Below, piece by piece: positions 3,492-29,800 of a stretch of DNA of 35,697 bases (the first letter of the stretch is position 1; the number at the start of each line of letters is the position of its first letter). This DNA is from Golubevia sp. BC0850. Lineage: Eukaryota > Basidiomycota > Exobasidiomycetes > Golubeviales > Golubeviaceae. Both the position numbers and the translations under genes were made by a program. The stretch lies in assembly GCA_012976225.1 (NCBI GenBank), contig JAAVVG010000055.1, forward strand, positions 1-35,697, in the 5' to 3' direction. Below the pieces are notes generated by a model. That model searched no databases. It worked only from the letters and a program-made list of their open reading frames with translations, and was not told the origin of the DNA.

Positions 3492-6400
3492 ATGGCTGAT
3501 ATTGGAGATCGTAACGTCAACACAGCCTTCACCGGACTTTTAACAACGGTTGCAATCTTTGGTGGAGTCTCTTCAATCTGTTTAGTTGGTTTTGAAGTCT
3601 TTCGACAATTCAGAAGGTTACCAAACGTTCATTTCACTAGATTCTGGAGACCGGCAGATAGAGACGTCGGAGGTGGAATAGATGGTCAAGATCAAAACAA
3701 AGATGATGAAGAGAATACTGCTGTAGGAACGGCTTGGAAAGGTCTAGGAACTAGAGACAGGAAGGATGGTGGGAAAGGGAAATTGACTTGTGAGGATTGG
3801 GAAATGGGTCATCTTTATTTGGCTAGAATGTTTCATGCTACGTGAGTATCTTCTTAAGTGATGGACAATATAGGTGTAGAAGGGAGAAGGGAAAGTGATG
3901 AGATGAGAGATGGGTGGGATGATGAGCTAAAGGAATAGGGGCATGACCTTCAAATTGGACAGTTTCTAAGAGAGAACACTTGATCTCTTCGTCAAATGGA
4001 ATTTTCAAGTCAGACTAGAATATCTGTTTGAATTCAGAGATACGTTTGAGCCTTGGAGGAGTTCTGGAGCTGACCAGGAGAGCTCACGAAGAGTGACAAG
4101 GTTGAGTTTGAACTCAACCTTTAAAACTGTTGATCTCTCGACTTCTCTTCTACGACATCAAATCCTCTTGAACTTTAGCTGATACCTCTCTCTATCTCCC
4201 TGTTTCTTGACTCTCTCTCGCCTCCTTAAACTCAGAACTCCATCTCCACCTTTGGCTAGGTGGCCTCTAGCTTGGGCTTGGCAGGCAATTAAGTTCGACG
4301 ATTGGTTCTATGCTACTCATACTGGAATGGACACTGTCGTCTACGTCAGATTTCTTCGTGCTCTTGGTGAGTGTTAGTGAGACTCATAGTCGCTCGCAAT
4401 CGTAACTCTCGCTGTCCAAGCTGCTCGATCGAGCAGAAAGACGAGAAGAAGACACTCTCTCAAAGACCTCTATTGGACTTAGACTTACCCAAGCTCCCTC
4501 TCCTCTCTTATCAACTCTATTCCTTCTCCTTACTCCTTCAGTCTGGTACTTGACTTTACACACTCTCACGACCGCTCCTCTTCTCCTAGGAATCAATCTT
4601 CGATTCTCAACTGGAGCAGATTACAAGGACATGTCAGCCGCTTCTATTTCTTTTTTGGTTACCATTCCTGATGCTGGTTGTGCCGATCCAAACTCCGCCG
4701 ATTGCAAAAGAACTCCAAACGAAGAAGGTCGTTCTCTACTCTGGATTCATCTAATCGCAATGTATTGGGTTTCTATCACCTGGTTCGTTGCTCTTCTTTG
4801 GATCGCTAGAGGAAGTATCTCAATTAGATCCAGATTGATCGAGGAAACTAGAAAGAAGAGAAAGGAGAGAAAGAGAAAGGAACAGGAAGAAAGGGATAGG
4901 AATTACGATGAGAATGAGAATGGAAGTGGACCTCAAGTTGAAGGATTAGATGTTAATGCAGAAATGATCAATCAACATGGTTTAGGTGGACAAAATGGAA
5001 AGAGCAATTTCTCTACTTCTGCTCCTCCTGAAGACGATGATGAAGGATGGAGACAAAGAACTTTAATGGTTCTGAATTTACCAACTACTATGAGAGACGA
5101 AGCTTCTATCAGACGTTACTTTGAAGAATTTCTTAGGCCTGACGATGAAGATTCGGTTTTAGATCTTCAAATCACCCAAAGTCAAAACTCTAAGAATTAT
5201 CAACAGGATGGACAGAAGGGAGAGAACAACTTATCAGTCGCTCAGGATCCAAAGTGCCACTCTAGGAAGAGCAACTTGTCGGAAGATTCGAATATTTCTG
5301 CAATGGGAGAAGACACTGGAATGATGGACGCTTCTGGAGTTCATGAAGGAGCTACTCATCTAGACCGTCAAAAGAGTCTAGTCAGATCAGATCGAGGACT
5401 TCTCAGACCTGATTCTCCTGACGATGACCCAAACTCTTCTTCCACTGGAATCGAACCTAGCTCTGGAGGTGCTGGACCTGTAGGACCGGAACCGGATACG
5501 AATCCAGACAGACATCTTCGCTCTCCAGTTCAAACTGTAGTTTTGGTCAGGAAGATGAACGAACTCTCAGCAATGCTCACTCGTAGACAAGAAGTGTTGG
5601 CTCAGCTAGAAGCAGCTCATATCAAGTTGGCCAAGAATGTCATGTCTTCAGTTGGAAAGAGGACTAACAAGATGAGACACAAGAAGAGAGAGGAAGGAAA
5701 AGGTGGAATGGGAGGGGTTGGAGGTGGAGAATTAGACAACAAAGATTTGAAGAGAGAACATAAAGCTGCTGCTCAAGGTGAAGGAAGTGATGAGACGAAA
5801 GCTGCAACTTCAGGATCTGATGGAGTTCGAAACGATGTCGAAAAGGAAGCTACTGAGAAGACTAGGAAGCAATTGGAACAGGAAGCCTTGGAAGACCTAA
5901 CTAGAAGGTTAGCTAGATTCTCTCCGAACAACAAAGGAAGGCACGGCAGAGAAGCCCAAATGAGAGGAGATGAAGAAGAAGATGAAGCCAACGTCATGGC
6001 TGAGACCGTTTGGGAATCGCTAGCTACTGTTCCAAGAGAGCTTCTGGATCCTTATCAACCAGCAACTAGACTATCAGCTTTATTCAGAGGTCAGACAGTT
6101 CCAACAATCGACTATCTCTTAACAAAACTCAATCTCTTGACTGCCCTAGTCACTGAGATGAGAGCTAGACCTCCTTCATCCTACGAGCCAACTTCAACTG
6201 CTTTCGTTACTTTCAGAGATCCAAGACAAGCAAGAATGGTTTGGAGGGAGTTGAAATCTCAAATCGTTGTGAGAGTCAGGTTGGCACCTGAAGTCAAGGA
6301 TTTAGATTGGGAACGATTAATGAGAACTTCTTTCACTGGTGATTTGGCTAGAGGTTTGGGTGTTAATGCTTTCTTTTGGGGTTTAACTATCTTTTGGGTA

Positions 6401-9400
6401 ATTCCAATTCAATTGTTGACATCGGTGCTTTTCAGTGTCAAGAATTTGAGATTGGTCTTCCCTCCAGTTGAGACTTTCTTCGAATCGCATCCTGGAGTTG
6501 AAGCTTTCGTTTCGGTTACTCTTCCAACCGTTTTGGTTTCCCTTATTACTATGGCTGTACCAGAGATTATCTTCCAGATCTCAAAGAGAGCTCAAGGTTT
6601 CGTTACCTTCTCTGCTCTTTACGACCAGTGTCTTTGCAGATATTGGAAGTTCATCATTTGTAATGTCGTTATCTTCTTCTGTATCGGTGTAACTACTATT
6701 GAGGTGAGTAAGAGAAATGTGCAGCAGAGAAAAGATAGCGAAACTGGAAATGTTGACTCGAGTTCTTTCCCTTGCTTCCTCTTCTCCCCCGCAGACCATT
6801 CTTCAACAAGTCGTGCTTTCTGGAGATCTGCTTCTCACAATCGCCTTCAGTTTCCCAGCAGCTGCTCCGTTCTACGTCTCTTACTTGATTTTGGGAATCT
6901 CGCTTCATGTGAGTTTGCATCAGTTCACCCTTTTCCATATCTGCCACTTTTCTGATCGACTCCTCCCACTCTTTCTTCACCATTCTTCAGAGTGGATTCG
7001 AGCTTTTTGGTTTCATGGTGCCGCTAATCCAACATCTAGGAGCTAGGAAGGCTTTCACACCTCGTGCTAGAGCTCTCAAGACGCTACCTCGTAACTTCAA
7101 TCGATACTATTGGCTGCCTTTCCACATCTTGATCGTCACAATCGTCTTCATCTTCGCCATCCTCAACCCTTTAATCCTTCCGTTCGCTCTGGTCTATCTC
7201 TTCGTCGCCATGGTCGTCTTCAAGAAGAACTTGGCCTACGTCTACTTCCGAAGGTTCAACGAGAAGGACGGAGTCGTTTACTTCACCAGGCTCCTTCGAT
7301 TCTCTTTGGATGGTCTCTTGGTCGGTCAAATCGTCATCGTCGTCTTCTTTGCAGTCACCAATCAGAGAGCAGTCTACATCGGAATGTCAGCTCTGCTGAC
7401 TCCCTTCACTGTCGGGTGCAAGCTCTTCGGAAGTCGTCTTTGGGCCTCTCAATCCAGGGCTCTCGATGATAGTGAGGCAAACGCTCTCTGCGGTATCACC
7501 GTCAACTACGCTTCTAATGGAGAGGGAGAGGATACTGCTTACGGATCTCGTATCAGTACTGCCTCCAAAGCTGATGGATCTCCTCTGGACGCCAGAGCTA
7601 GAGGTCGTTATCCTACTGTCCTACCACCTCCTTCTACCGGATCAGCTTTCTATCGAGCTTGGCAGAAGGTCCACGATTCTTTCAATGCAAATGGAGCCGA
7701 CAGACCTAGCTACGTGGCAACTGCTCAAGCCAGAGGTCAGCAGCTAGCCAATCCTGTCCAACAAGGTGCTAGAACTCTGGCTAGCGTACCTCTCGACGCT
7801 GTCAGACAGAAAGCTGGTAATGCTAGTCACTTCAGGAACGCTCTCACTCTCCACTTCGGAAAGAACAAGGACTACGAGGAGCGAGCTGAATCTGTCGCTA
7901 GCAAGAGGGAGGTTCAGGTCCAGGAGGCGATTGTCGCTTCTCAGAACCTTCCAGAAGCCGCTGCTGCCGGAGATCAAGAGTTCAAGGAAGAGAAGAAAGC
8001 TATTGATCCAGAGGGCACTCCCAGGGGCAAGACTCAACGCAGACGGCCTTCTCGAAGAGGATCTTCCAGGAGCGAGAATCGTCCTTTCCTTTCAGGTGCC
8101 GACGCTGTCATGATGAACGCGCCAGTTGAACACGATGCCGGAGACTTGGGCTTTAACTATGGAGACGAAGATGGATACGAGGCTCGTATGGCTCGAACGC
8201 CCTCTGGAACTCCTCGAAGAAATTCCAGAAGAGGAAGCCAGCTCTACCGAAGTCCCTCCCGCTTCCGTGGTGAGGGGCCTGGAAGTGGGTTTCTTTCAGA
8301 TGAGAAGGGTCGTCGCCTCTCTGAATTCGGCCATCTCATTCCTGCCCATGAGAGCGAAGAAGGGAAGGAGTCTGGAGAAGCCGCTAAGGACATCTCGTTC
8401 GAGGAGGATGATGATGAGGAGGAGGAAGAAGAAGAAGACGCTCATCGTGACTTGGTCTGTCCTCACGCCAATGTCAGATGGGATGACACGCCAAGCAACA
8501 GCGCTCGTTACAACAATCCCTTCTACAACACTGAGCTGGATCCCTTCCTCTGGCTGCCCAGAGATCCACTCGCCCTCCTGGATCTCTACGACACGATCGA
8601 ATGGCATGGAGCCGCTCTGGTCAGTTCTCAGGGAGGTCAAGGTTACGTCGGAGATTGGGACGAGGAGGAAGAGGAAGAATACGAGCTCAGAGAGAAGGGC
8701 CACTACGACGACGATTCGGACGACGGTTTGGACGGAATCGAAGGTCACGAACAGATTCTCCTCACTGGTACTCTGGCTAGACATCTCGAGGAGGTCGAAG
8801 ACGTTGAAGACGTACCTGATCCTGCTGCCAGTCTTTCAAAAGCCGTTCTCGCAGACTACAAGAAGGCAATTCGCAGAGGAAGTAACGTCGGAAGCCAAGA
8901 CGATTCCAGCACTTTGGGTCCTAATGCTCTCGTGAGACAAGGCAGTATGATGTCTCATGCCAGCTTCAGGTCTCCTACTCTCTCAGCTAGAATGAGAGTC
9001 GACGGAGATTATCTGGACAGGCCGCCAAGTCCAATCGATCTTCGTTCAAGTCCAACCAACGCTCTTCGCCCAGTCTCAAGTGCAGGTGCGGATCAAGAGA
9101 GGTTACGCAGATTCCCAACTACCAAGCGAAAGGACACTGCTGGAACTATCCCATCGTTCGATCTCAACACTTCCGATCCAGTCCCAGCTTCTCCTCTCCC
9201 TGATGCCGCTGTCGCCTCACCAACCGCAGCTTCTGAAGACCACAAGCAAAGAGCTCACTTCGAAGACGCCTCTGTGGCAGGTCACGATCACAAGGCCTCG
9301 ACTGCTGGTCCTCATCGTCCAAGTACTCTTCTGCCTCTTCCGACCGAGCAGAGGATTTTTTCGAGTCCAGCTGGTGTCTCTTTCCAAACTCCAGCCCAGG

Positions 9401-10287
9401 TCCCTGGCGATCGCTTGGAACGTCAAGGAACTACTGGGTCTCACTTCAGGTATGGAACTGGAGCCAGTGGAATGTCTGGTGCCAGCTTGAAATCCGGTGC
9501 CACTTCAGTTGGTAGGAATAGAACTATCACTATGAAGAAGGCTCTTCAAGCGGAGGTACTGGAAGAAGAGAGGAGACTCTTGTTGAGGGAGAAGTTGGGA
9601 ACTATCAAGAGAAAGACCACCATGCTCAGAGGTACGACTCACAAGGTGGAGGCTCAGCAAAGCGAGAACCTTCAACGTGGAGAGTGAGTATCTGAAACTG
9701 AAATAGTTTTTTGAGACTCGATGAGTTCCATCGTCTTGAATTTCCAAGAGACTGATGTCGTTTCCTTCTCTCTTTCCTCTCTCTTCTCCAGCACCATTAT
9801 GTCTCGTCACGAAAGAGCTCTTCAACGTCGTCGCGACGCCAAAAGTGAAGCGGAATCTGTCTACGAGCCAGAGCAACAGAGTCCAACTCATCCTAGAGTC
9901 GCCTCTGCTGAGTCTCAAACTCCTCGAAACTCTCGTTTCCTCCTCAGAGACATGTCTTTCTCTCGTACTCCTAAGACTGGAACTGGAGCCGGAAACGTAG
10001 ATGGGTCTCACCTACAGATGCAGGAGCTTTCGGCTCAAGGAGTCGCAAACAACGCAAGATCTCAACTTAATACTCCAACTCCTAGCACTTCTAAACGACC
10101 GCCCACTCTCTTCCTCGGAGATCAACAGAACTATCAATACACAGACTTTGGAATCCAATCTTCTCCAGGGTCTTATAAAACGGGAGGCACTCCTTCGAAC
10201 GCCAACAATGGTGGAGATTTGTCTCGACAACAGCAACAGAAACCTGCTGTTTCAAGTTCCACGTCAGAGAAAAAGTCTCCTCCTTGA
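3492..10287 (+). CDS. CSC1/OSCA/TMEM63-type (DUF221) channel, very long
   Basis: Six exons: 3492-3841, 4236-4366, 4542-6703, 6795-6908, 6991-9683 and 9792-10287. They sum to 5946 bases (1981 aa) with matching phase at every junction. Residues about 10-35 form the first membrane helix. Exon 2 holds the conserved FYATHTGMDTVVYVRFLRAL block that precedes the next helices of this family. The cytosolic PHM7-like (RRM-related) domain begins near RTLMVLNLPTTMRDEASIRR but is split by an acidic and basic low-complexity insertion of a few hundred residues before resuming (AFVTFRDPRQARMVWREL). The pore helices follow from about residue 765 to 1070 (AFFWGLTIFWVIPIQLL, then YYWLPFHILIVTIVFIFAIL). The remaining roughly 900 residues are a disordered tail with two Glu runs. 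Family members are mechanosensitive or osmosensitive cation channels of the plasma membrane or vacuole, usually 750-1000 aa. The ATG follows a C/T-rich leader. Confidence 0.93.
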
Positions 10288-10796: not shown

Positions 10797-13532
10797 TCAC
10801 CATTTGACCGCTTTCGAATACCTCAAATCCAGCGAACCCAAAACAATGATGCTGAGACCTAGAGGGAGCAGAGCAGCAAGAACTAGAAGATCCTGCCACT
10901 TTCTTCGCCCTCGAGTCCTCTTCTGCAGCTCCCTCTCCTTCCTAGCTAGAAGGATGTTCAACGTAGCTTCCTCCTCGTCCTCCTGATCGTCTTGACTTCT
11001 GGTCTGCGAGTCTCGATCTTCATTGAAACTCGTGATTGGATCCGTTCGAGAATCTCTGGCAGCCTTCCTAGGATTTAGAATCATGTCTGGTAACGGATCG
11101 CTTTCGCCTCCATCGTTCATGATCTCACCATCTATACCTCTAGCAATTCCGAATGGTAAGAGCAACTGATTCTCTTCACCCTCCAGTCTGATCTGGCCAT
11201 TGCCCTTTCCTTTCCTCCTGCCCGCCAGTAATCCCAAAGTCCCTCGAATCAGCTCCCCAGCTTTTCGACCAATCCCGCTTGCGACTGCTTGTCCACTAGG
11301 AAGGATGGCTCTTGGTCGTCTGATGTGAAAGAGAATTATCCAGACCAAGCTTGGCAAAACCCAGCCTACCACAGCTCCGAGAAGGCCAGTAACCTTTTGG
11401 ACCAGGATGAATCTAGCTTCCTCTCCTTGCCTGTCCTTCTTTCTAAAACCTCCAGAGGAAGAAAGATAGCTCAAAGTCGAGGTGAAAGTCCAGAGGAGAA
11501 GACCTGCGAGAGAGTTTCGAGCTAACTTCGACCACGTCAGAGGATTCTTGGGAGGAGGTAGTTTGACACCTTTCCTTTTCTTCTTGGGTTTGACCGAAGT
11601 TGAAGAGGACCTTAGTTCTCTGTTTGAAATCTTCCCCTTCTGGTCAGCCGTCTTCTTCTTCTCCTTTCTGAATGGATTGAGCCTTAGAAGCTTCAACAAC
11701 CTGCCCCAGCTGGACCTCGCTGTTACGAGGCACAGAGAGAGATGAGAACTCAAGAGGAGGACGAAGACAACTCTGCAGGCGTTGAAGAGATCCGAAGAAG
11801 TTGAAAGTGATGAGAAGAAATTGGCTGAGGAGAAACGAGTGGAAGCAAAATGTAAGCGTCAGGATCGTTTAATACACTGAAGAGAGTAAAAAAGGTGTGA
11901 CTCACGTCCTATAGAGCTTTCGGATGTATCAGAATCGATTCCCAAGTCCAATTTGATCCCAACACCGACTGCTGTCGAGATTGCGACAACACCAGCAACC
12001 TGAAGAGTTTGAGCCACCATAAATGCTTTGACATTAGACTTGGACTGATCGCTTCTTCTGAGAGAACGATTGTGAGCCAAGATCTGGAGTGGCGAGCTTG
12101 AGAGCGTTAGAAGAGGTAGAAGAGAGATCGGCGCCCAGATCGATGGAGGTTTGAGAGGATTGAAATTGAAAGGAGACGAGAACGTCTTCCAGTGAAGAAG
12201 AGGGGTGTTTGAATTGAATCCTTGATCTTCTTCTCTGCTCTTGACAATTAGAATTGTCACCACGGCTGGATAGCTCAGTAGGGCAATCCATGTCGAGAGT
12301 TTGATCAAGTTGCGTTTGGCTAGAGGGAAGATGACAAGAGGCGTCGTCAAAAGTCCTCCTATGACGAAAGTGATGAAGCTTCTGTCGTGAAGCGGTATTC
12401 CTCGAGGAGAATAGTGAAAGAAGATCTGAAGGAGGAGATCGGATAGAGCTGAGAGTGGCGAGAAGTGGAAGAGAGGACCAAAAGATTAAGAACTTCGCCC
12501 TTAAATAATTTTTGGTCTTCTCATGATTTCCCCCTTAATCTTCCCCGATGCAGATCCCTCAGTCCTCAAAGCAGTTGTCCTTGCCTTCTCGACGTTCCAA
12601 CCTCTACAACTCCTCGCAGCCTCACTGAACTCACCTCCATAAGCAACCCAAGCAGCCATCATGGCATAAGTCGCCAGCAATAACCCAGATGTACATCTCC
12701 CAACGTTCCCTTTCCATCGATTGTGTCTCCCAAAGCTCTGGCCTGTAATTTCTTCGACAGTCAGCCCTTGAACGTATCGCGAAAGGACTACAAACAACCC
12801 TCCACCCACACCGCCGAGACCAGCTATCAAAATCAACCCAACCACTCCCCAAGCTACTCCTGTAAGACCGAAATAGTACGGCATGGAAAGTAGAACTCCA
12901 GGATGTAGCGAAGCGGCGAAGAGATTGGCAGAGACTAGAGGAAGAGATAGGGACGCTGGGAGTCCACCTCCTGAGCCTTTTCCTCTCGAGTGGGAGGATC
13001 CTTTGGTCAGGTACGTCCAGACGGAGGAGAATCTTGATTTGAAAGTCTTGGTGTTCTGAGGAGAGGGTGGTGGATGATTGGAGTTCCTTGATTTGGAGGA
13101 TCTCAACCTCAGAGGAGCACTTTGGAAAGCTTCAGCGTCTTCCGGATCGTCTTGATAAGGATTGAAATCTTCGAAAGTTGAATCAGCTGAAGCCCAAGCT
13201 CTAGTTGGAATCTGTTGAAGTCCATTCTCCTCCTGTTCTTCCTCCTGATCGTCGTAATCATTCTCATCGTTGGATCCTGACCCTGAATCTGATCCGTCCT
13301 CTTCCTCCTCTTCTTCATTCTCTTGCTCGCCTTCTTCTTCTTGATCGGAATCGTCCCATCCTAATTGAGAATTCAGAAAACTTTGAGGATGATTTGCTAG
13401 TTGATGATGAGAGGAAGAGGCTATCTGATCGACTTCTTGCTGCACCAACTCATCTTGAGCTTCTGCTTCGATGTCTTGGACTTGGTTGGTGTTTGAGGGG
13501 GATGAGCTGGAGGTTGTCTCGATCTTTGACAT
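10797..13532 (-). CDS. AAAP-family amino-acid transporter, AVT-like
   Basis: Exons on the minus strand: 13532-12635, 12448-11906 and 11824-10797. Together they make 2469 bases (822 aa), all in phase. I chose ATG 13532 (MSKIETTSSSS) because the longer frame upstream reads like untranslated sequence. The first ~215 residues are acidic and Ser-rich with a long Asp/Glu run. The membrane part then starts with LPLVSANLFAASLHPGVLLSM and MPYYFGLTGVAWGVVGLILI, matching the helix 1-2 region of the SLC32/36/38-AVT family. It continues over the first intron (WVAYGALSDLLLQIFFH) and ends with LGAVVGWVLPSLVWIILFHI, a basic/acidic loop and a last helix (DLLVLAALLPLGLSIIVLG). AVT proteins move amino acids across the vacuolar membrane using the proton gradient. 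Substrate and direction cannot be read from the sequence. The gene is convergent with the channel gene. Confidence 0.82.
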
Positions 13533-14715
13533 GCGAATTTGAAGAATTCGAGCTCTGGATTGAACACCCAAAGGTCGAGATAAAAAGCTGTTGAGGAGGA
13601 GAGAGGCAGTCTTCACGGAGGTATAGGTGGGTAAACACTCATCGCACGACACCCTCAGCCCCTCCTTCTCCCTCTTCTCCTCTTTCCCCTTAACTTTGAA
13701 TTTTATATTCAAAGACACCACGTTCCTCAATCCTCGAAGCAGAGGATCGTAACCTTTGTCGAAGTCGAGCGCTGCGTCGCTGCGTTAGAGTCTCGAGATC
13801 GCTGGAAAGTTGGAATCTGATCACACCGGCCGTATGAAAATTGAAGGGATGATCTACAAAACTAATTTCCCGAGAAATAATCAGAGTGATCTGACTCACA
13901 TGGACTGGGAGGTGGTTTTCTGTTGCAAAGGACGTCATCAGGTTTCAGGGGTGAGCGTCAAGCAGAGAATAACATGGGAAGCACTTAAATAAGGAAGAAT
14001 ACTTCGCTCATGCTATGATCTAGATCTGATTAAAATTAATTAATTGGATCAGATTTCCTTCAATGGTTGTATTCTCCAAGCGAGCTTTCTGGCCAAGATC
14101 CTCAGAAGTCCTCTGTGACCGTCATCGACGTCCCCCTTACCTCAAATCTGTGACCTCATCCCACTATTTCAGCCCCTCGGTAATAATTTTGAGACTTCAT
14201 AGACAAATTCTCCAAGGAGCTTTGGAGCTTCAAATCATGAACAAGACTATACACTCCTTATCATGTCGCCAAAAATCGACATGCATTTGAGAGAATTTTC
14301 GTAATCGTCCAATGCTGCCTCACGCAGCCTCTCTACCTGGACCTTGTAAGCTTACCTCGAATCTCTCTTCCTGGAAAAGGTGAAAGATGGAAGAAGCTAG
14401 ACGAAAGAAGTTAGGAGAGACTCGGAGGATGAACTCTTATCGCAGACCTGTAGGAGTTAGACGGGTAAACAAATCCTCCACTCGATCATCTTTTGCAAGC
14501 CGCCGTTTGAGCGCTAGAGCACTTTAGCCCACGGAACTTCAGAGATTCTTGAGCAAGAAGGATAGAAAAGGAAGGAAGGAGTTGGTAGATCTCATTCTTC
14601 CCCCTTCTCAGTCACCCTCTGAGTACGATAGACTTGCTACCAGAAAGTACTCTCAAATCTCAGAAGACAGAAGAAATTTCAGAAAGGTAACCAAGAGGAA
14701 GAAAGAGAACGGGAA
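13533..14715. promoter_or_regulatory. Divergent intergenic region, transporter and kinase fusion
   Basis: This gap of 1183 bases lies between two divergent genes. It is richer in A/T around 14030-14050 (an attaattaatt run) and holds only short frames. One 46-codon basic frame (14387-14527) is listed separately. No tRNA or mobile element was recognised. Confidence 0.45.
14387..14527 (+). CDS. Small basic frame, possible upstream ORF
   Basis: ATG at 14387 opens 46 codons ending with TAG at 14525-14527. The peptide begins MEEARRKKLGETRRMNSYRR and is more than a quarter Arg/Lys. It lies 189 bases before the kinase-fusion ATG, where it could act as an upstream ORF in the 5' leader. No homologue is recognised and the transcript start is unknown, so it may be chance. 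Confidence 0.2.
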   Translation: MEEARRKKLGETRRMNSYRRPVGVRRVNKSSTRSSFASRRLSARAL

Positions 14716-17700
14716 ATGAGCTCAAACCACCGTCGGGAGGGGCCTTTGCCTTACTCACTTCACATCTCAGCTGAAATCTCAGGTTTACCTTCTCTCCCTC
14801 CCCTCATCTCACAACGTTCTTCCACCAACACTTCCCCTATTCATCCAACTTCATTATCCAAAGAACTCAAGTACGATTCACTAGATTCAACAGAGCAGAA
14901 TCAATCTACCAACCACCACCATCACCACCATTCTGCAAGGCTCACCTCAAATTCTGCTCCAAATTCTCCAACCGAATTCAATCAAGTTAACACAAGACAT
15001 GCTACAGATTTGATCAAGTACACACAAAGTAAAACTTCAAAGTCAGATCAATCAAAGCAGGTTGTTCAACAGACCTCTTCCTCTCAACGCAGATCCAGAA
15101 GTCGTTCTGTAGCTCAGCCTTCCGGAATGGCTATGTTGCCTCCTCCCTCTAACAAATCTAGATCTTCTAATTCAAATTCGACCTCTAGATCTACTTCTGC
15201 CTCAACCCAGCAACCTCATTCAAGTTCCAATACCACCACCAATGCCAACTCAAGAACTCACACTCCCACCAGAGCGGAAGAGGACAGACGTAGAGCCATG
15301 GAGAAGGCTAGGGAGAAGGAGAGAGAAGAGTGGGAGAGAACAAGAGGAGCTGGTAGTTGGGTCATGAGACTCAAGGACAAGAAGACTGAGATTAGGAAGA
15401 AGAACGCCTTGAGGGAGGAACCAGATCTAGTAGAGAACTCTGCCTCTCCCTCAAATCGGGAAGAGAAGGCAGAGACTCAAAGTGTGAAAGGGAAAGGAAA
15501 GGAAACTTCAACACCAGAAGAAGAAAGTGAATGGGTAGCAGAAGATGTTCTGCCTTTATTGGAAGAGGTTGAGCAGGCACGATTCGAGGTGAGTAAAGGG
15601 TTCTGGCTAGACTATCCTTGGGTACATTCAACAAATTTAGGGCGATAAGGGATTTGAGACGATATTTCAGTCCTTCAAAGGACTGGAAATAGGACTAGAG
15701 GCTGTGGAGAAACACTTCATCACATTTTTAATCTTTGGGACCAGAGACTGGTCTGGGATAAAGAGGCTCCATTGTCCATCGAACCGAGCTCTACTCAGGA
15801 GACTACTTTGAATTCACAGGCCTTGGACTAACCTCTTTTTGTTCTCATCATTCTGATTTTCACTCAGCCATCCTACGTCCCCTCAGCAGACCAGCTCCTT
15901 CAGCGTGGAATCTCCGAGTACACAATCCTACCGAAGATTCTAGGTCGAGGGAAGTTCTCCTCAGTCTTCCTAGCTGTCAAAGCTGGCAGTGGAGGTTATC
16001 AGAAATCATCTTCGGTAGCAGCAAATGGTTCTCTGACACCATCTGCTAGCTCCTCCCAGATGAATGGGTACCTCTCTTCGAATCAGACCCCCACTCTACA
16101 GCAATTCCAAGTCGGACCTTCGTACTTCGCAGTCAAGCATACCCCTCTCTTCCCTCATCATTCTCTCATCGCTACTAGACTGCTCAGAGAGCCAACTCTG
16201 TTGGCTGAGCTACCTCCTCATCCTAACTTAGTAGCGGTTGTCGAGACGATCAGGACTCCAGGTCACTTCTATCTGGTCGAAGAGTATCTAGGAGGCTACG
16301 TCACTTTGGAGCAGCTTCTACCGATGCTAGGAGAATACCGTCAAACCACCTCGAGTTCAGGGTCAGCGCCAGGAGAGACGACTACGTCTTCGGTTCCCAC
16401 CTTACCTCCAGCATTGGCGGACAACATCTTCACTCAACTTCTATCAGCAGTCAGAGCCATTCATCATCCTCTTCAAATCTGTCACCGAGACATCAAGCCG
16501 GAGAACATTCTTGTGCATCCTACTACTCTTCAACTCAAGCTTCTAGACTTCGGTCTAGCTACTCACTTCTCTAAGAGTGGAGCCAAGCTTTCGACCTGCT
16601 GCGGATCTCCAGCCTTCCACTGCCCCGAGATCGTTCATGCTCTAGCCTCTCCTCCAGGAACTTCGACCTACTGGGGACCCGAGGTAGATGCTTGGACTTG
16701 TGGAGTGACGATGCTCAGAGTTCTGACTGGAGTCAGATATCCTCTAGGTTCAAGTCACTCCAGTCTCAGGAGCATGAGTATCAGAACGCAGAGAGCTCTG
16801 TCCATGATCCCAGATTCTCCTTCAAAGTTGAGGGAAAGAGTGGGGATGCTCTTGGATATGGATGCCGTCAAGAGAATGAAGGCGTTGGAGGACATGGCTG
16901 TACAGCAAGAGAGAGAAATGGGAGGACCGGAGAGAACTAGGAAGGAATTCAGATCAACTACTTTCGTCAAGACAGAACCCTCTCATCGGATGCATCTTCC
17001 CGTCTTGGTGGGTCCAAAGGCAGAGGAAGCTGTGGCCTCTCCAAATTCTTCTCGAACAGCCCATGGGGGCTTGAGCGGCAGGAAGAGAGGAGATGGAGGA
17101 AGGAGCGGCAGGAGCACTCCTCCTACGAGCGAAGCCAGCAGGTCTAGAAGTCGGAGGTCCACTCCCAGTGGAAGCAGAGCCAGCTCTCCAAGTCCGCTCT
17201 CCAATCCCCCCAGCGCTTTGACGTCTCCTATCTCAGAGGACGACAACGCTGCCCCCAAGCAACCTTCTACTCCATCTCTGCGAGTCAATTCTCAGAACCT
17301 TCAAGCGTCTCAAGAGACAGTCAAAGCGGACAAACCACCTAATCTTCAGCTTCAAACCATTCCTAGACCCATCGTGCTCATCAATCCCGGTGCTCAGCCA
17401 CCCCAAAGGTTGCTATCCTTCATCAAATGTGAGTCTGGTTTGTCGAACCAAATCTCTCAGTCTTGGCAGCATACACTCTTCTTTGTTATCTCTCGAACTC
17501 ACGGAACCCTTATTCCTCCTCTCTCATTCCTTCTCTTCTCTTTCCAGATTGTCTTCGATGCGCTGGAGTTCTCTATCACGCTTGGCCTGACACGACCTCA
17601 GCTCTTGCCGCTGCTTCAGGATCGAACCCTAGCTCCTCTCAACAACCTTTCCCAGGTCAAGGAGAGCATTCTCTGGCGCCCACCTCTCATCCTTCTGTGG

Positions 17701-20700
17701 CAGGATTCTCTGCAGCTCTAGCAGCAGCTCATGGCTCTTCCGCTGTCCCTAACTTCAATTCTGGCGCTGCTTTCTCTCCGACGACCCCTCTCTTCCCTTT
17801 CCCGAATGGCGGCTGCTCGTTGAATCAGTTACCGCTACCGGAGAGGGCAGATGGCTACGCTCACGTCCACGTCTTCCAATGCGTCGTGGATCTTCCGGAA
17901 CGAAAGGATGGAACTGGAACAGGAGCGGACGAGGAAGGAGGTCTCTCCTTGGTCCAGACGATCATGGCAGCGTTTGGAAGAAAGCAGAGCAATCGAAGGT
18001 CGATCTCTCAGCCTCCCAATGCCAGAGAATCATCCAAGTCTTCGACCGCAGCCCCTGCCAGCTCTACCGACGCAGCTCATCCAGACGGCAAGGTCAGATG
18101 CCTTCAATTCTACTTGGTAGTTCGGTTCCCAAAACCTGGACAATCTCATCACAGCAACCATCGATCTCGTTCTCAAATTCCGAATGGCAGAAGATCGAGA
18201 GCTGGAAGTGCAGCCACTACTCCTCTGGCCACCACTCCAACTCTGAACTCTGGTCAGTTCCCGAGCCCTGCTGCCCACTCGAATCCTTTTGGAGGGGAGA
18301 GAGAGCTTACTTCCAAGAGGTCAGTCGACTTGACCATGGAGAGAAGCAACTCCAATAGCACCATCAACGCTTCAAACAGCGGAACCTTCCCAAGACCTCG
18401 TGGTAGACCTCAGTCCCTCAGCTTTGTTGGCTCTCCTACAACACCAACTCTGGAGCTAGCAACTACTCCGATCTCAGGAACCACTTCTACCGGGACGCCT
18501 TCTCACTCGCCGTCCAGGTCTAGGACAGCCTCGAGCGCTCAGGATCGCAAGCTCAAGTCCAGTCACTCGTCCCACCTACACCGCAAGCAGATGGGATCTC
18601 GAAATGCCAAGGTCTTCATCCAAGTATCAGACGAGAGAGCTCTTGACATGGTGAGACAGGCTCTCATGATAGGAGGGAGCACGGAGACTTCAGACGTGGA
18701 AGACGATCCCAGCAGGGACGGAGACGATTCTATGGTAGCTAGAAACGGAAATTTGAGCATGCCTGGCACTCCTCGTACTGCCGAGAAGGAACTTCAACTT
18801 CAGCAGCAAGCTTTCGCCGGAGCTGCAGGTCAAGAGCAGAAGAAGCGAGCTAGCGCTCAGAGGTCTCTCTCCCATGCTCCTCTGACGACGCATGGCAGGT
18901 ACACTGCCTCTGCTTCGTCTTCAACTTCTGATCTTCATAGTGCTGCCGCAGGAGTAGCAAGCGGAGGAGGAAGAGCTTCCAACGCCAAGACGTCATCGAG
19001 AGCTCGTGGAGGTAGAGCTCAGAGCTACTCGACTCCTGCTTCCCAATCTCAATCCCGTTCACACTCCCGAACTACTTCAAGAGCTTCCACTCCTACGAAA
19101 GAGCACTCCAGTGGACGAGCTAGCTCTGACGCTGGCAGCAGCAATCGATGTGAGGACGTTGACGAGAGCGAAGAAGGCGAATTCGACTCGAGAGGGAGAA
19201 CAGCTACAAGGAAAGAGCAAGACAGTCTTCAACTCGAAGTGCAAGCGCCTTTCTCCTCTTCGGATCCTTCTCAAGTCGATAGTTCTCGTCCATCTCAGAA
19301 CAAGGGTCTCAGCTCGTTGGCTCAAACCGCTCTCCAGGAGGAGTCCCCTTCGCCTTCTCCTGACTCGAAAGCCAGGAAGCAGCTGCCAGAGATCAAGATT
19401 CCGCCTTCTGGTCTTCTCGGAACTCCTATTCAAGAGAACCCTTCCTCTGTTGGTCCTGGGAGCGGCGCCATTCTTTCCACCTCTGTCGCAACAATCCAAC
19501 CTTCCGACGTCGGAAAAGCACTCGGTGATACTGAGACCCTCGCACCTCGAGAGCTTTCTCTGGAGACTCTGGTGCAGAGCTTGGAAACTGCTCTTGAACC
19601 TCTCGTCAGCGCCTCTGCCAGGTCTGGTGTCCACACACGGGGGGCTCAGAGCTCTGTCTCAATCAACCCATCAGCTCATTCCGAAGCTCATTCTCAGCTA
19701 GAGATGTTGCTGAATCGACTCACGTCCTTGGAGAGATCGGATCCTGATCGACTTCAGGAGGACTTGGAACCAGTCATCTTTTCGATGGTAGAGGCACTTT
19801 CTCCTGCTTTGGGACTCGTGGATCAAGCTTCGGATGAACCTGAGAACATCCTCTCTACTGCAATCAAGTCGATACCCGAACTATCTCAAGAGATTCTTCA
19901 GCTTATAGCCAAGAATGCCAGCTCGCCTCGAGAGGTCCTCCTCGCACTTCAAGCTGGGATCGAAACATTGATCGCAACGGGCGCCAGTAGCGGAGAAATC
20001 AGTCCTGTCGATGACGGAGATGGAATCGAGGAGGACGTCGTTGAGGACGTGGCTAACGATGAAAAGAAGAGGCTTTCGAAAGTAAAGAAGGACGACGACG
20101 CTGGTAAGGCTATTTGGCAGGTCATAGGTCTCCTCAAAGTTCTGGCAACAGGTGAGTAATGAGAGTCTGTTTATCTCTCCCTTCTCTTTGGCAAAGGTTC
20201 TAACAGCTGCCACTTCTTCTCTCCCACAGTCTTCCCTCGCATCAAGTCGAAGAAGCCATCGAACTTCACGGAACCTTTGGCCTCTCTCCTTCCCAGAGCG
20301 ACAGTTCGCTTGATGGGAAAGCTGGTTGTCTCTACCGCCTCTTGGAGCGCTCAATCGAAGCCAAAGTCAAGTGACAGCACGATCTCTGAGCACCTCGTTC
20401 GGAGCGTCTTTGACCTGTGCTTGTCGATGGCGAAGTGGGAAAGGAGCATCACTGGAGCTCAATCGCAATCTCAAGCAGAGCAGCCTCTTTCAAGTGACCT
20501 CATCGCTATCTTCCTCACCTCAGTTGGAGCAATTGTTCCAGCTTTACAGCCTAGAGTACCCGACGAAGACGGTTTGACTATCGCTGAAAGGCAATTCAGG
20601 AAGTCTCAGCCACAGTTCAACATTAAAGGTCCATCCAACGACGCACGTTCCAACCCATCTCAGCCTACCTCTCCGATCTGGGAAGAGCTGCGTATCGTCG

Positions 20701-21903
20701 TTCAAAAGCTAGGACTCAATCTCGAGAGGCTGGCTTTCGAAAGGAGGTCCGCTCCAACCTCTGCCGTCGCCACCAACTCTCCCCTCGCGGCTTTGGAGAC
20801 TCAACGAGATGCAGCAGTCGACGAAACTCGATCAGCAGCCATGTCTACTGGAGCTTTCGTCATGTTCGTCTACCTCTCTGCTTTCGATTCTTCGTCCACC
20901 ATCAAAGACTGGGACTCGGCTCTAGCGAAGGTGCACCTTCAACTTTCTCTCCCTTTGCTGCTCGCTGCCTTCGGTTCAAGTGCTCAAATGCCAGCAGCCG
21001 GATTTGGTGCTGGAAAGAGCGTACCAGGGATGCGGAGCGTTCTCACGGACTCGGCTCTCCTCTGGCTGCAGTGGTGCTTCGACGCTTTCTCTCGAGATGC
21101 GTCAAAGACATTCCTCCCCGAGGGCCTTGTCTTGGTGCTGATCCCTGCTCTTTCGGTTCACGCGGCCTTGTCTCCAAGTCCAACAACCAGACACATGTCC
21201 TTCAGATTGGTGGCTTCTATCCTCGATCGTCACACAGAGGATGCCATCTTACTAGACATTCTTTACGATATGGTTGCCGAGACCCCCTTTCCGCAATTGA
21301 GGGATGCAAGTACTAATCTCATCCGAGAATTGGTGGGATCTCGTCTTCCAATGGTCAGCTCAACCTCAGATTCTGGTCCAACTTCTTCTCTGGCTTCTCG
21401 TAGACTGCTGGAAGTGCTAGGAGAACACCTCTTCGCCCTTCCAGACGACAAGTCTCTCCCTTCAGCTGTCGAACCTCGTCAAGAAGGCTTTGATCAAGCT
21501 AAGCATGCTACTATGACCTACCTCGAAGAGAACTCGTCAATCTTGACTTCTGCCTCTGGGGTGTACTACTTCTTGTTGAAGAGAGACCAAACCAATCTCG
21601 TGAGTTCGCTCTATCACGCTCAGCAACCTGATCCGTCGTTCTGGACTCCAACTCACCTCTTTCCTCTTTCTCTTTCAGACCGGGATACGAGACCCTGCTC
21701 ATCTCGAAGCAGTGGAGAAGCGATTTCTGTCTCCTCTCCGAGCTGGCATCAATGCTTGGTGCCCGATTTTCGCAGAAGATATCAAGGCCTCAAGCCCTTT
21801 ACCTTCCAACTCAGAAAGCGATTCTCAATCCGCCTTGACTCTTCTTCAAGTCTTGCAACTCTCTATGAACAGCATCGATGAAGCCGTCAAGTCGTTGAAG
21901 TGA
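14716..21903 (+). CDS. Protein kinase fused to a Ybp/glomulin-like domain
   Basis: Exons 14716-15588, 15868-17428, 17548-20151, 20230-21599 and 21679-21903 total 6633 bases (2210 aa), in phase throughout. Residues 1-291 are disordered with a natural six-His run (67-72). The kinase domain spans about 310-640: P-loop LGRGKFSSV (316-324), Lys381 in FAVKH, Glu399, HRDIKPEN (497-504), DFG (518-520), GSPAFHCPE (537-545) and DAWTCG (565-570), so catalytic residues are intact. About 55 residues are inserted between the P-loop and Lys381. A region resembling a kinase-tail regulatory domain follows (NAKVFIQVSDERALDMVRQA), then about 250 low-complexity residues. From about 1475 to the end comes an all-helical domain like Ybp1/Ybp2/glomulin (SFRLVASILDRHTEDAILLD; GIRDPAHLEAVEKRFLSPLR). 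Family members act with Yap1 and the kinetochore in yeast, or bind the RBX1 RING protein in animals. There is no stop or Met between about residue 1217 and 1530. Confidence 0.8.
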
Positions 21904-22465
21904 CCGCCCTACCTCTTTCTCGTCATTCTTACTATCTCCAACTCTATCGCCTTTTCATACATACACATATCATGTCTCCTTAATGTCTCCGTCTCACACC
22001 AAACATTCAACGAAGAAAAGGTCCTTTAGATTTCTGTAATCCCCTTTACTCTCCACTTCCGTATCAAGGTTTCAAAGCAAATCAAGCTAACAATCTACAT
22101 CCAACCTTTTTCAATTACAATACATCGTATTCAGTCCTGTTGTTTGATGTTCCCGTGGAAGAAGAGATCGTGAAAAGATTGAAATTTTGTTCTCTCGAGG
22201 CGAGAGAAAGCGAGACAGGAAGAGCATATGATGTTACAAAAAAGTAGAGAGTGTCCGTTAAGTGCGAGATAAGTTAAAGGGTAATCCAGAGCAAAGATTA
22301 GTTAAAAAGATAGAAATGATGAGAAAGGAATGCGAGAGTTTTGGGAAAGCCGAGCGCTTCTGAAATGTACCAGAGATTTCGAAGGACTCGATGAGAGAAT
22401 GAGAGTGAGAGGTAGTAAAAGAAAGACTGAGAGAGCAGTGTCGTTCTGGGGCTTGAAGTAAGAAT
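21904..22465. other. Convergent 3' region
   Basis: This gap of 562 bases lies between the ends of the kinase fusion and the hydrolase gene. It is A/T-rich around 22000-22140 and consistent with two 3' untranslated regions. I see no further gene. Confidence 0.5.
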
Positions 22466-26810: not shown

Positions 26811-29800
26811 ATGGAGGCCTTAACTTTGGGAGTCGCTGCAATGGAAAGAAAGGTTAGTACAATATTCTTACTCACAGTCACAGTCACAGTAAAGAGAAGG
26901 GTGATCTCGGTAATGGTCCTCACAGCACAGCAGATTCACTTTCCACTCTCCACCCTTCTCACAGGCTCGATCCAAACCGATGCACAACATTCTGAATAGA
27001 ATCTTAGCCAACAAAGAACTCAACGTTAACATTATCATCTTTGGAGACAAAGTGTTATTAGATGAACCAGCTTCAGCTTGGCCAATAGTTGATGTTCTAA
27101 TCTCTTTCTTCTCAACCGGTTTCCCTTTAGACAAAGCCATAGAATACGTTGATTTAAGGAAACCAATCTGTGTAAATGATTTAAGATTACAAAAGGTTTT
27201 ATGGGATAGAAGAGCTGTACTTTCAATCTTGGATAGCGTAGGAGTTCCAACTCCCAGAAGAATTGAGTTGGATAGAGATGGTGGTCCTATCAAATCTCTG
27301 GGATTGGATGATGTCATTACTAAGGATATCAAGAAAAGATTAGGATTGGATTTAAGTAAAGGTAGAGAAAAGGAATTGGTTTGTAAGTTGAAAGATGGGG
27401 ATGAAGACGTTTTGTTGATTGGAGACAGAGAAATCAGGAAACCTTTCGTTGAGAAACCGGTCAGTGGAGAAGATCATAATGTTTACATTTACTTTCCTAA
27501 GAATAGAGGAGGTGGGGCTAGGAAACTCTTCAGAAAGGTGAGTCAGAAGTGCTCTTGGGAAAGGCGGCGGGGTTGGAAGAAGGTCTGGGAAACGTTCCCT
27601 CTATTAGAGAATCTCTCTTCTTGAAAAAGATCATCTCCGTGCTCTTCCTTACCTCTATCTTTTCCAATCCTTTATCCAATCCTACCCGTCTTCAGGTCGG
27701 AAACAAATCTTCCGAGTACGATCCAACTCTCTCCTCTCCCCGAACTGAAGGTTCCTACATTTACGAAGAATTTATGGACGTAGATAACGCTGAAGACATC
27801 AAAGTTTATACCATTGGACCTTATTTCGTTCATGCTGAAGTCAGAAAATCACCAGTCGTAGACGGTTTAGTCAAAAGAAATCCAGATGGAAAGGAAATTC
27901 GTTACATCACCAAATTGACTGAGGAAGAAATCAAAATGGCAACTAATATCACCAAAGCTTTTAAACAGAATATTTGTGGGTTCGATTTGTTGAGAGTGGG
28001 AGATAAAAGTTATGTCATTGATGTTAATGGTTGGAGTTTTGTTAAGGGGAATGATTTCTATTATGGTGAGTTTTGAGATGAGAGGCAAGTGAAAAGGGAA
28101 GATTCCATTCGGCTAGTCTGTTTTCAGACCTCCCCCTCTTTTCTAAAGCAATTCGATCACTTTTTATTCCCTAGACAAATGTGCCGAAATCCTAGGAAAG
28201 TTCTGTAGAACTTCAGGTCCACGTCGACCAATCTCAAGAGCTGGTTCAATTTCTTCTCTCTCATCAACTTCTTCAGAAGAAGAACAACCGGTTAACGGTT
28301 CTTGGATTTTAAAAGCTAATGTAACGGTCTTTCGTCATGGTGATAGAACTCCAAAACAAAAACTTAAAAGATCTTTTAAAGTTTCGGATCCTTGGTCAAA
28401 ACCTCTTATCGATTTATTACAGGGTAGAAGAGAAGAAATCATCCTCAGAACTCAACTAGAACTAGTTTCGGAAGCAGTTGATAAAAGTAGAGAGTTATTA
28501 AAAGCTTGGGGAGAAGAAAATGGAGAGGATACAAATGAACAAGAGAAAGATTTAAAGATTATTAGAGATTTGATTGAGAAAAAGAAGGAACAGGCTGGAA
28601 CTAAGATTCAGATGAAACCTGGATTCAAGAAGGAGAAGAAGGAGAAGAAGGAGAAAGAAAAGGAGGAGGATGAAGACATTGAAGAGGGAGAGGGAGAAAA
28701 GAAAGAGAAAGACTTGATGGAAGATGGAACTCAAGAAGAGGCTGTAAAGGGCAAGAAGGAGAAGAAGGAAGGAGAATTGGAGAAAATGCAGTTGATTTTA
28801 AAATGGGGTGGAGAGGTGAGTAATCCTACAAGATTAGAGCTGGACGAAAGATTTTGATTGCTGCGAAGCTACTTCACTGACAATTACTCCCTTACTTTCC
28901 ACTTGTTTTTTTTTCATTTTTTTTTTTTAATCCTCAGTTTTCTCATGCAGCTCGTCATCAAGCCAAAGACTTCGGTCAGAATATGAGGAGAGATCTCATG
29001 ATCATGTGTCCTGCCGCGTTGAAGAATTGTACCGTGAGTTGGAATTGCTAGCTTCCCAATATTTCTTCTTCAGTCCTCGAAAGTCCTTTCTTCTGAACTT
29101 CCACTTTTACATGAACTTCTTTCACTTCAGATCTACACCTCTTCCGAACGAAGAGTAACAGCTTCAGCAGAAATCTTCGCTTCATCATTACTAGATGATC
29201 CAGAATCACCTTCTTCAACTCCTCTTCAACTTATGATTCGTAAAGATTTACTCGATGATTCAAATGCTGCTAAAGATTTAATGGACGCAACTAAAGACAA
29301 ATTGAAAGCTTCTTTACGTCCAGATTCTTCTGAAACTTTAATTGAACCTCCTCCTCATTGGCCTAAAGATTTACCTCTTCCTCCAGAACTTGGAAAAACC
29401 ATCGCTGACTTACTAAAAAGCTTAGGTGAAACTATGAGAGAGAATTATAAGAAGAAAGGCGAAGGAGTTGAGAAGATTCAAATGAGATGGTGTACTCATG
29501 AGAACCCGAGTCTTTTCAAAGAGAGATGGGAGAAACTTTTGAGTGATTATGAAGAACAACCTCATGATCCTTCTAGGGTGAGTCATTTTACTCCTCTCGA
29601 AGCCTTTGCTAAGAGATCCCTCGGCTTTCTCTTTCAATCGAAACTGACCTGAGCCTCTTCATCTTCCCTCTCTCCTTCAGACTTCTGAACTTTACGATAT
29701 GATCTGTCATGACGCTCTTCACAATAGGATCTTCTTGGAAAGCATCTTTACCTCGAGTTCAGATCCAGCCGAGAAGAAGTTGGACAGGCTTCATCAGCTT

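Follow-up and report, generated by a model that had tools for sequence, protein, structure and literature searches.

The best reading of positions 14716 to 21903 of the window, which is the whole 35,697-nt stretch of DNA analyzed here, is one continuous gene in which a kinase that appears to be active is linked to a Ybp/glomulin domain. A single transcript across both halves is predicted and strongly supported, and two separate transcripts are unlikely. The coding linker between the two halves does most of the work in the single-gene argument.

Gene model and splice sites

The gene lies on the plus strand, where five exons join in phase to give a protein of 2210 residues. The original prediction of five exons, four introns, and this length was reproduced, with all four introns GT-AG and in phase. 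The parts of the model are as follows.

14716..15588, + strand: exon 1, with the ATG and residues 1-291; polar and, from its composition, probably disordered
15589..15867, + strand: intron 1, 279 nt, in phase 0; the least secure of the four junctions
15868..17428, + strand: exon 2, residues 292-811; an open frame that contains the kinase domain (Pfam PF00069)
17429..17547, + strand: intron 2, 119 nt; connects the kinase exon with the bridging exon
17548..20151, + strand: exon 3, the bridging exon, residues 812-1679; lies in the open frame 17433-20159 and alone has no Pfam match
20152..20229, + strand: intron 3, 78 nt
20230..21599, + strand: exon 4, residues 1680-2136; an open frame with the Ybp2/glomulin domain (PF08568 match)
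21600..21678, + strand: intron 4, 79 nt
21679..21903, + strand: exon 5, residues 2137-2210 and the stop codon

Splice sites were ranked with hand-set generic scores over 280 GT and 611 AG sites. The donor starts with GTGAGT in four of the four introns. The donors at 15589 (intron 1) and 20152 (intron 3, where GTGAGT follows an exonic CAG) tie for first of 280, while those of introns 2 and 4 rank 3rd and 7th. Two unused sites, 20104 and 18651, rank 4th and 5th of 280, and the donor-like site at 18651 scores slightly higher than the model's own donor at 21600. Both lie among the three internal GTRNG donors of exon 3 (18651, 19150, and 20104). On the acceptor side, TTCTCTTTCCAG of intron 2 and TTTCTCTTTCAG of intron 4 are tied best of 611, followed by CCACAG of intron 3 in 3rd place and the intron 1 acceptor in 7th.

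The ATG at 14716 is the first of its open frame. The decoder described below starts there if run from 14600 but not from 14300; with more upstream sequence included, it proposes an additional, doubtful start at 14312. At 279 nt, intron 1 exceeds the other introns (78-119 nt) in length, so the N-terminus may differ from the model. By eye, intron 1 (15589-15867) includes short segments that look coding in two frames; a small exon may have been missed here, or alternative splicing may occur. We considered splitting intron 1 around a small extra exon; no convincing second donor was seen by eye, and the main setting of the decoder retained one intron.

Kinase and Ybp2/glomulin domains

The domains and the regions between them are located as follows.

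15937..15966, + strand: glycine-loop-like ILGRGKFSSV, residues 315-324, assigned by eye
16123..16884, + strand: protein kinase domain, with AVK lysine K381, E399, HRDIKPEN (497-504), and DFG (518-520)
17550..18758, + strand: middle region, residues 813-1215, without a Pfam family and with no second copy found
18762..19535, + strand: disputed linker, residues 1217-1474, polar and coding-like in the exon 3 frame
19881..20267, + strand: N-terminal stretch of the Ybp2/glomulin match, residues 1590-1692, profile positions 88-165; spans intron 3
21039..21756, + strand: C-terminal and best stretch of the Ybp2/glomulin match, residues 1950-2162, profile positions 414-609 of 636; spans intron 4

The expected N-terminal kinase was confirmed by the Pfam Pkinase profile PF00069, which matched residues 377-629 with an E value of 3.4e-34 and 118.9 bits, compared to a curated cut-off of 31.7. 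The catalytic motif set is complete: glycine loop, AxK, alpha-C Glu, HRD (497-499), and DFG, with the glycine loop and the alpha-C Glu (E399) assigned by eye. The glycine-loop-like segment falls outside the Pfam match, which starts at profile position 26. By eye, a polar insertion of about 40 residues (336-376; 16000-16122) separates the glycine loop from the AVK lysine, and it may be because of this insertion that the Pfam match omits the loop. The T-loop, LSTCCGSPAFHCPE, covers residues 532-545 and ends in CPE at 543-545.

The best matches of the kinase among solved structures were AMPK alpha-2 (E value of 2.7e-20), MARK, and Snf1. AMPK alpha, Snf1, and MARK are CAMK/CAMKL kinases. The T-loop segment LSTCCGSP aligns with LRTSCGSP of AMPK. 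In contrast to AMPK, Snf1, and MARK, this protein has extra residues separating its glycine loop from its AVK lysine and is fused to a Ybp domain, and the search of its middle region found neither a KA1 domain nor another regulatory family. From its sequence, we infer an AMPK/CAMK-like Ser/Thr kinase that is apparently active. The best other match to this kinase in the genome had an E value of 3.7e-15 and 34% identity.

At the other end of the protein, the Pfam profile PF08568 (Kinetochor_Ybp2/YAP/Alf4/glomulin) matched in two stretches with an E value of 2e-18 and 66.7 bits, compared to a cut-off of 25. This bears out the proposed C-terminal Ybp/glomulin domain and rules out the alternative that no profile would match it. 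The N-terminal stretch (1590-1692) is weak, scoring 25.5 bits against the cut-off of 25 once the strong stretch is removed. While the tail of exon 3 alone had no Pfam match, it is probably part of the Ybp domain, because the 1590-1692 stretch begins there and because exons 4 and 5 alone scored 45.9 bits, compared to 66.7 for the whole C-terminal half. The predicted structure of exon 4 is all helix, but it is a poor model (mean pLDDT of 42.8). A comparison of the Ybp half with solved structures gave two matches, with E values of 0.84 and 0.85, which we took as chance. In the genome, PF08568 had one match at E values up to 10, that of this gene, in a search made exon by exon that a very divergent copy could escape.

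The middle region between the two domains has hydrophobic segments at residues 914-928, 994-1008, and 1165-1185, and a search of the genome for a second copy found none. A KA1-like identity was unsupported: four segments of the region had no kinase-associated family at E values up to 10. The profile search returned a single match, to a PrP8 domain, at an E value of 0.09 and below that profile's own cut-off.

The linker and the question of one gene or two

The original prediction that exon 3 is free of stops in its own frame held, as did the claim of a methionine gap at about residues 1217-1530: in-frame methionines are found at 1216 and 1531, with none between. We scored the linker with a codon model built with pseudocounts from 18 long ORFs (15,389 codons) at ten loci elsewhere in this genome. 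The exon 3 frame of 18762-19535 scored +0.32 bits per codon with no stops, the best of six frames; the other five scored −0.15, −0.17, +0.05, +0.03, and −0.14, with 2, 12, 4, 13, and 8 stops, respectively. The linker score is also higher than that of the kinase exon (+0.10) or the Ybp exon (+0.13). Over 20,000 mononucleotide shuffles, the probability of the linker being open by chance was 0.0001. Its GC content is 0.546, compared to 0.450 and 0.400 in the 500-nt flanks of the gene, and GC stays between 0.49 and 0.57 along the whole length of exon 3. This linker does not look intergenic.

The same frame was followed along exon 3 in 16 overlapping 300-nt blocks. Compared with the two other plus-strand frames, it was best or tied in all 16. 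With the minus strand included, it ranked first in nine blocks, tied in one, and lost in six, and the winner in each of those six was a minus-strand frame with two or more stops. An earlier scoring, for which the remaining exons of the gene served as the training set, was positive for this frame in all 16 blocks. The signal is weakest at 17550-17999, with a codon score of +0.01 in two overlapping blocks. Scored against a noncoding background, the exon 3 frame gave +0.29 at 17550-17721 and +0.19 at 17722-17967; the other frame, in which the kinase would stop at 17721, gave −0.13.

We then asked a decoder for its preferred structure over 14600-22300. The decoder is crude, combining the codon model and the generic splice scores with start and intron costs. 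Its main setting returned the five-exon model, which was printed at four gap lengths for that setting. On the ten other loci, which carry no annotation for comparison, it separates same-strand neighbors, e.g., in L002, L004, L007, and L008, but L005 and L006 yield single calls of roughly 7 kb.

One rival reading is that two adjacent genes lie on the same strand, the kinase ending early and the second gene starting inside exon 3. The kinase could end at a stop at 17721 if intron 2 were retained, or by splicing from 18651 to a nearby stop; joined to the acceptor at 18693 or 18712, the donor-like site at 18651 would bring a stop after no more than 14 or 9 codons, respectively. The second gene could start at one of the in-frame ATGs that exon 3 contains (such as 17964, 18759, 19704, or 19785) or by a spliced start from the ATG at 18604, for which the same donor-like site, 5th of 280, could serve with the acceptor at 18712. 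The position of the domain alone would allow a later start: the matched Ybp stretch begins only at residue 1590, downstream of Met1531 and Met1558. Against this reading, the splice sites of intron 2 are high ranking, and if the intron stayed in, 17548-17721 would score −7.5 bits in the kinase frame, compared to +16.7 in the exon 3 frame. The steady GC of exon 3 and its coding-like linker also argue against a boundary there. When a stop and restart were forced within 16890-20250 with a minimum gap of 60, 150, 300, or 500 nt, the best split lost 8.5 to 34.8 bits in 12 of 12 settings. With no minimum gap (run from 14300), the split lost 10.5 bits at a start cost of −12 and 4.5 bits at −6, and only with free starts (cost of 0) was a break favored, by 1.6 bits. 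We regard the start costs of −6 and 0 as too loose, because the decoder there also breaks the kinase domain itself, with a stop at 16574 and a restart downstream. Taken together, we consider two genes to be unlikely.

A single long transcript might also be accompanied by shorter ones, so that an internal promoter (near Met1216, at 18759) or alternative splicing yields a separate Ybp protein too. The in-frame ATGs at 17964-18759 and the donor-like site at 18651 would allow this, but the sequence does not require it, and we think such products fairly unlikely. Alternatively, the halves of one protein may not act on each other, the fusion tying only their expression or half-life. The long, polar linkers would suit this arrangement, as would the lack of a known substrate for the kinase or partner for the adaptor. 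On the other side, it runs against the general expectation for a retained fusion, and because no second PF08568 gene was found, the fusion would carry the function of that family. Halves that do not act on each other seem quite unlikely to us.

Genome context and proposed role

The genome assembly comprises 25.8 Mb in 64 contigs. The STE3 pheromone-receptor family is present (best E value of 6.6e-48), while STE2 gave one match only, below the cut-off at an E value of 0.07. STE3 without a clear STE2 fits a basidiomycete, and the genome looks basidiomycete-like from these sequences. Upstream of the fusion gene, at 4406-9687, two overlapping long frames correspond to a CSC1/RSN1-type channel (PHM7_cyt and both RSN1_7TM parts). 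Three long open frames at 10797-13784 on the minus strand, partly hydrophobic by eye, had no Pfam match at an E value of 0.001. Downstream, at 26914-29652 on the plus strand, PPIP5K2_N and histidine-phosphatase matches mark a VIP1/PPIP5K-type gene.

No relatives of the kinase and exon 4 were found in viral contigs, nor any of exon 4 in bacterial and archaeal genome contigs and plasmid proteins. The collections consist of viral, bacterial, archaeal, and plasmid sequences, so the misses are uninformative on the spread of the fusion among fungi. Among the matches listed in the open-access literature, there was no description of a kinase-Ybp fusion, which is a weak negative.

The fusion would join two known families in an apparently new combination. 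To our knowledge, yeast Ybp1/Ybp2 and glomulin occur solely as separate adaptor proteins; here, a protein that resembles the PF08568 family over profile positions 88-165 and 414-609 of 636 is joined to a kinase. Ybp2 and Ybp1 are described as binding partners of other proteins (PMC2238814, PMC6545440). Ybp2 associates with the central kinetochore (PMC2238814), and Ybp1 can join Yap1 and Orp1 in a ternary complex (PMC6545440); in the available part of a further source, Ybp1 is named only as a yeast regulator (PMC2666651). Glomulin blocks RBX1-containing ligases by masking their E2-binding surface, using residues around 472-479 and 563-574 (PMC12169662); the 4F52 structure of glomulin is cited in PMC5462531. 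Arthrobotrys oligospora YBP1 is likewise a fungal protein with a YAP-binding/ALF4/glomulin domain, with a role in growth and development; unlike the present case, it is described in the accessible portion of that report as having its own gene, with a kinase-domain gene named separately (PMC8022932).

Returning to the single-gene reading, we think it probable that one gene encodes a 2210-residue protein in which an AMPK/CAMK-like kinase is joined to a Ybp/ALF4/glomulin adaptor that docks the kinase on a partner complex. In this model, the N-terminal half would be a Ser/Thr kinase with its catalytic motifs in place, connected by long polar linkers and the unnamed middle region to a C-terminal helical adaptor. 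By analogy, the adaptor is most likely the docking part, holding a partner. Adaptors of this family share the theme of binding a protein complex, and a kinase carried on the same polypeptide would be brought to the bound complex; its targets could be either the complex or the adaptor. The original prediction had proposed phosphorylation of an oxidative-stress or ubiquitin-ligase adaptor, a role that the fused kinase may have.

By family analogy, the partner would be the RBX1-type RING of a cullin ligase, with Yap1 or kinetochore proteins less likely. We tentatively place RBX1 first because the best match covers the C-terminal part of the profile, and glomulin likewise has its RING contacts in its C-terminal part. 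An RBX1-type RING profile had 22 matches in the genome at E values up to 0.01, with 11 above the cut-off and the best at 1.7e-9; these may include other RING proteins. The PAP1/Yap1 profile PF08601 had no genome match at E values up to 10, and the controls gave no match either. CENP-O, the sole COMA/CCAN subunit searched, gave one match of 21.2 bits, below its cut-off of 23.9. In a more specific and decidedly tentative version, the kinase would be hard-wired to a glomulin-type brake on a cullin-RING ligase. The brake would bind the RING, and the kinase, under upstream control of its AMPK-like T-loop, would phosphorylate the ligase, the E2, or the brake, making ubiquitination signal switched.

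If real, the fusion fits the absence of a stand-alone PF08568 match in the genome search. It would also be a natural “Rosetta stone” clue that a kinase and a Ybp/glomulin adaptor act together, and it would offer a partner that can be tested for these adaptors, whose reported roles (oxidative stress, kinetochore, and ubiquitin ligase) differ between species.
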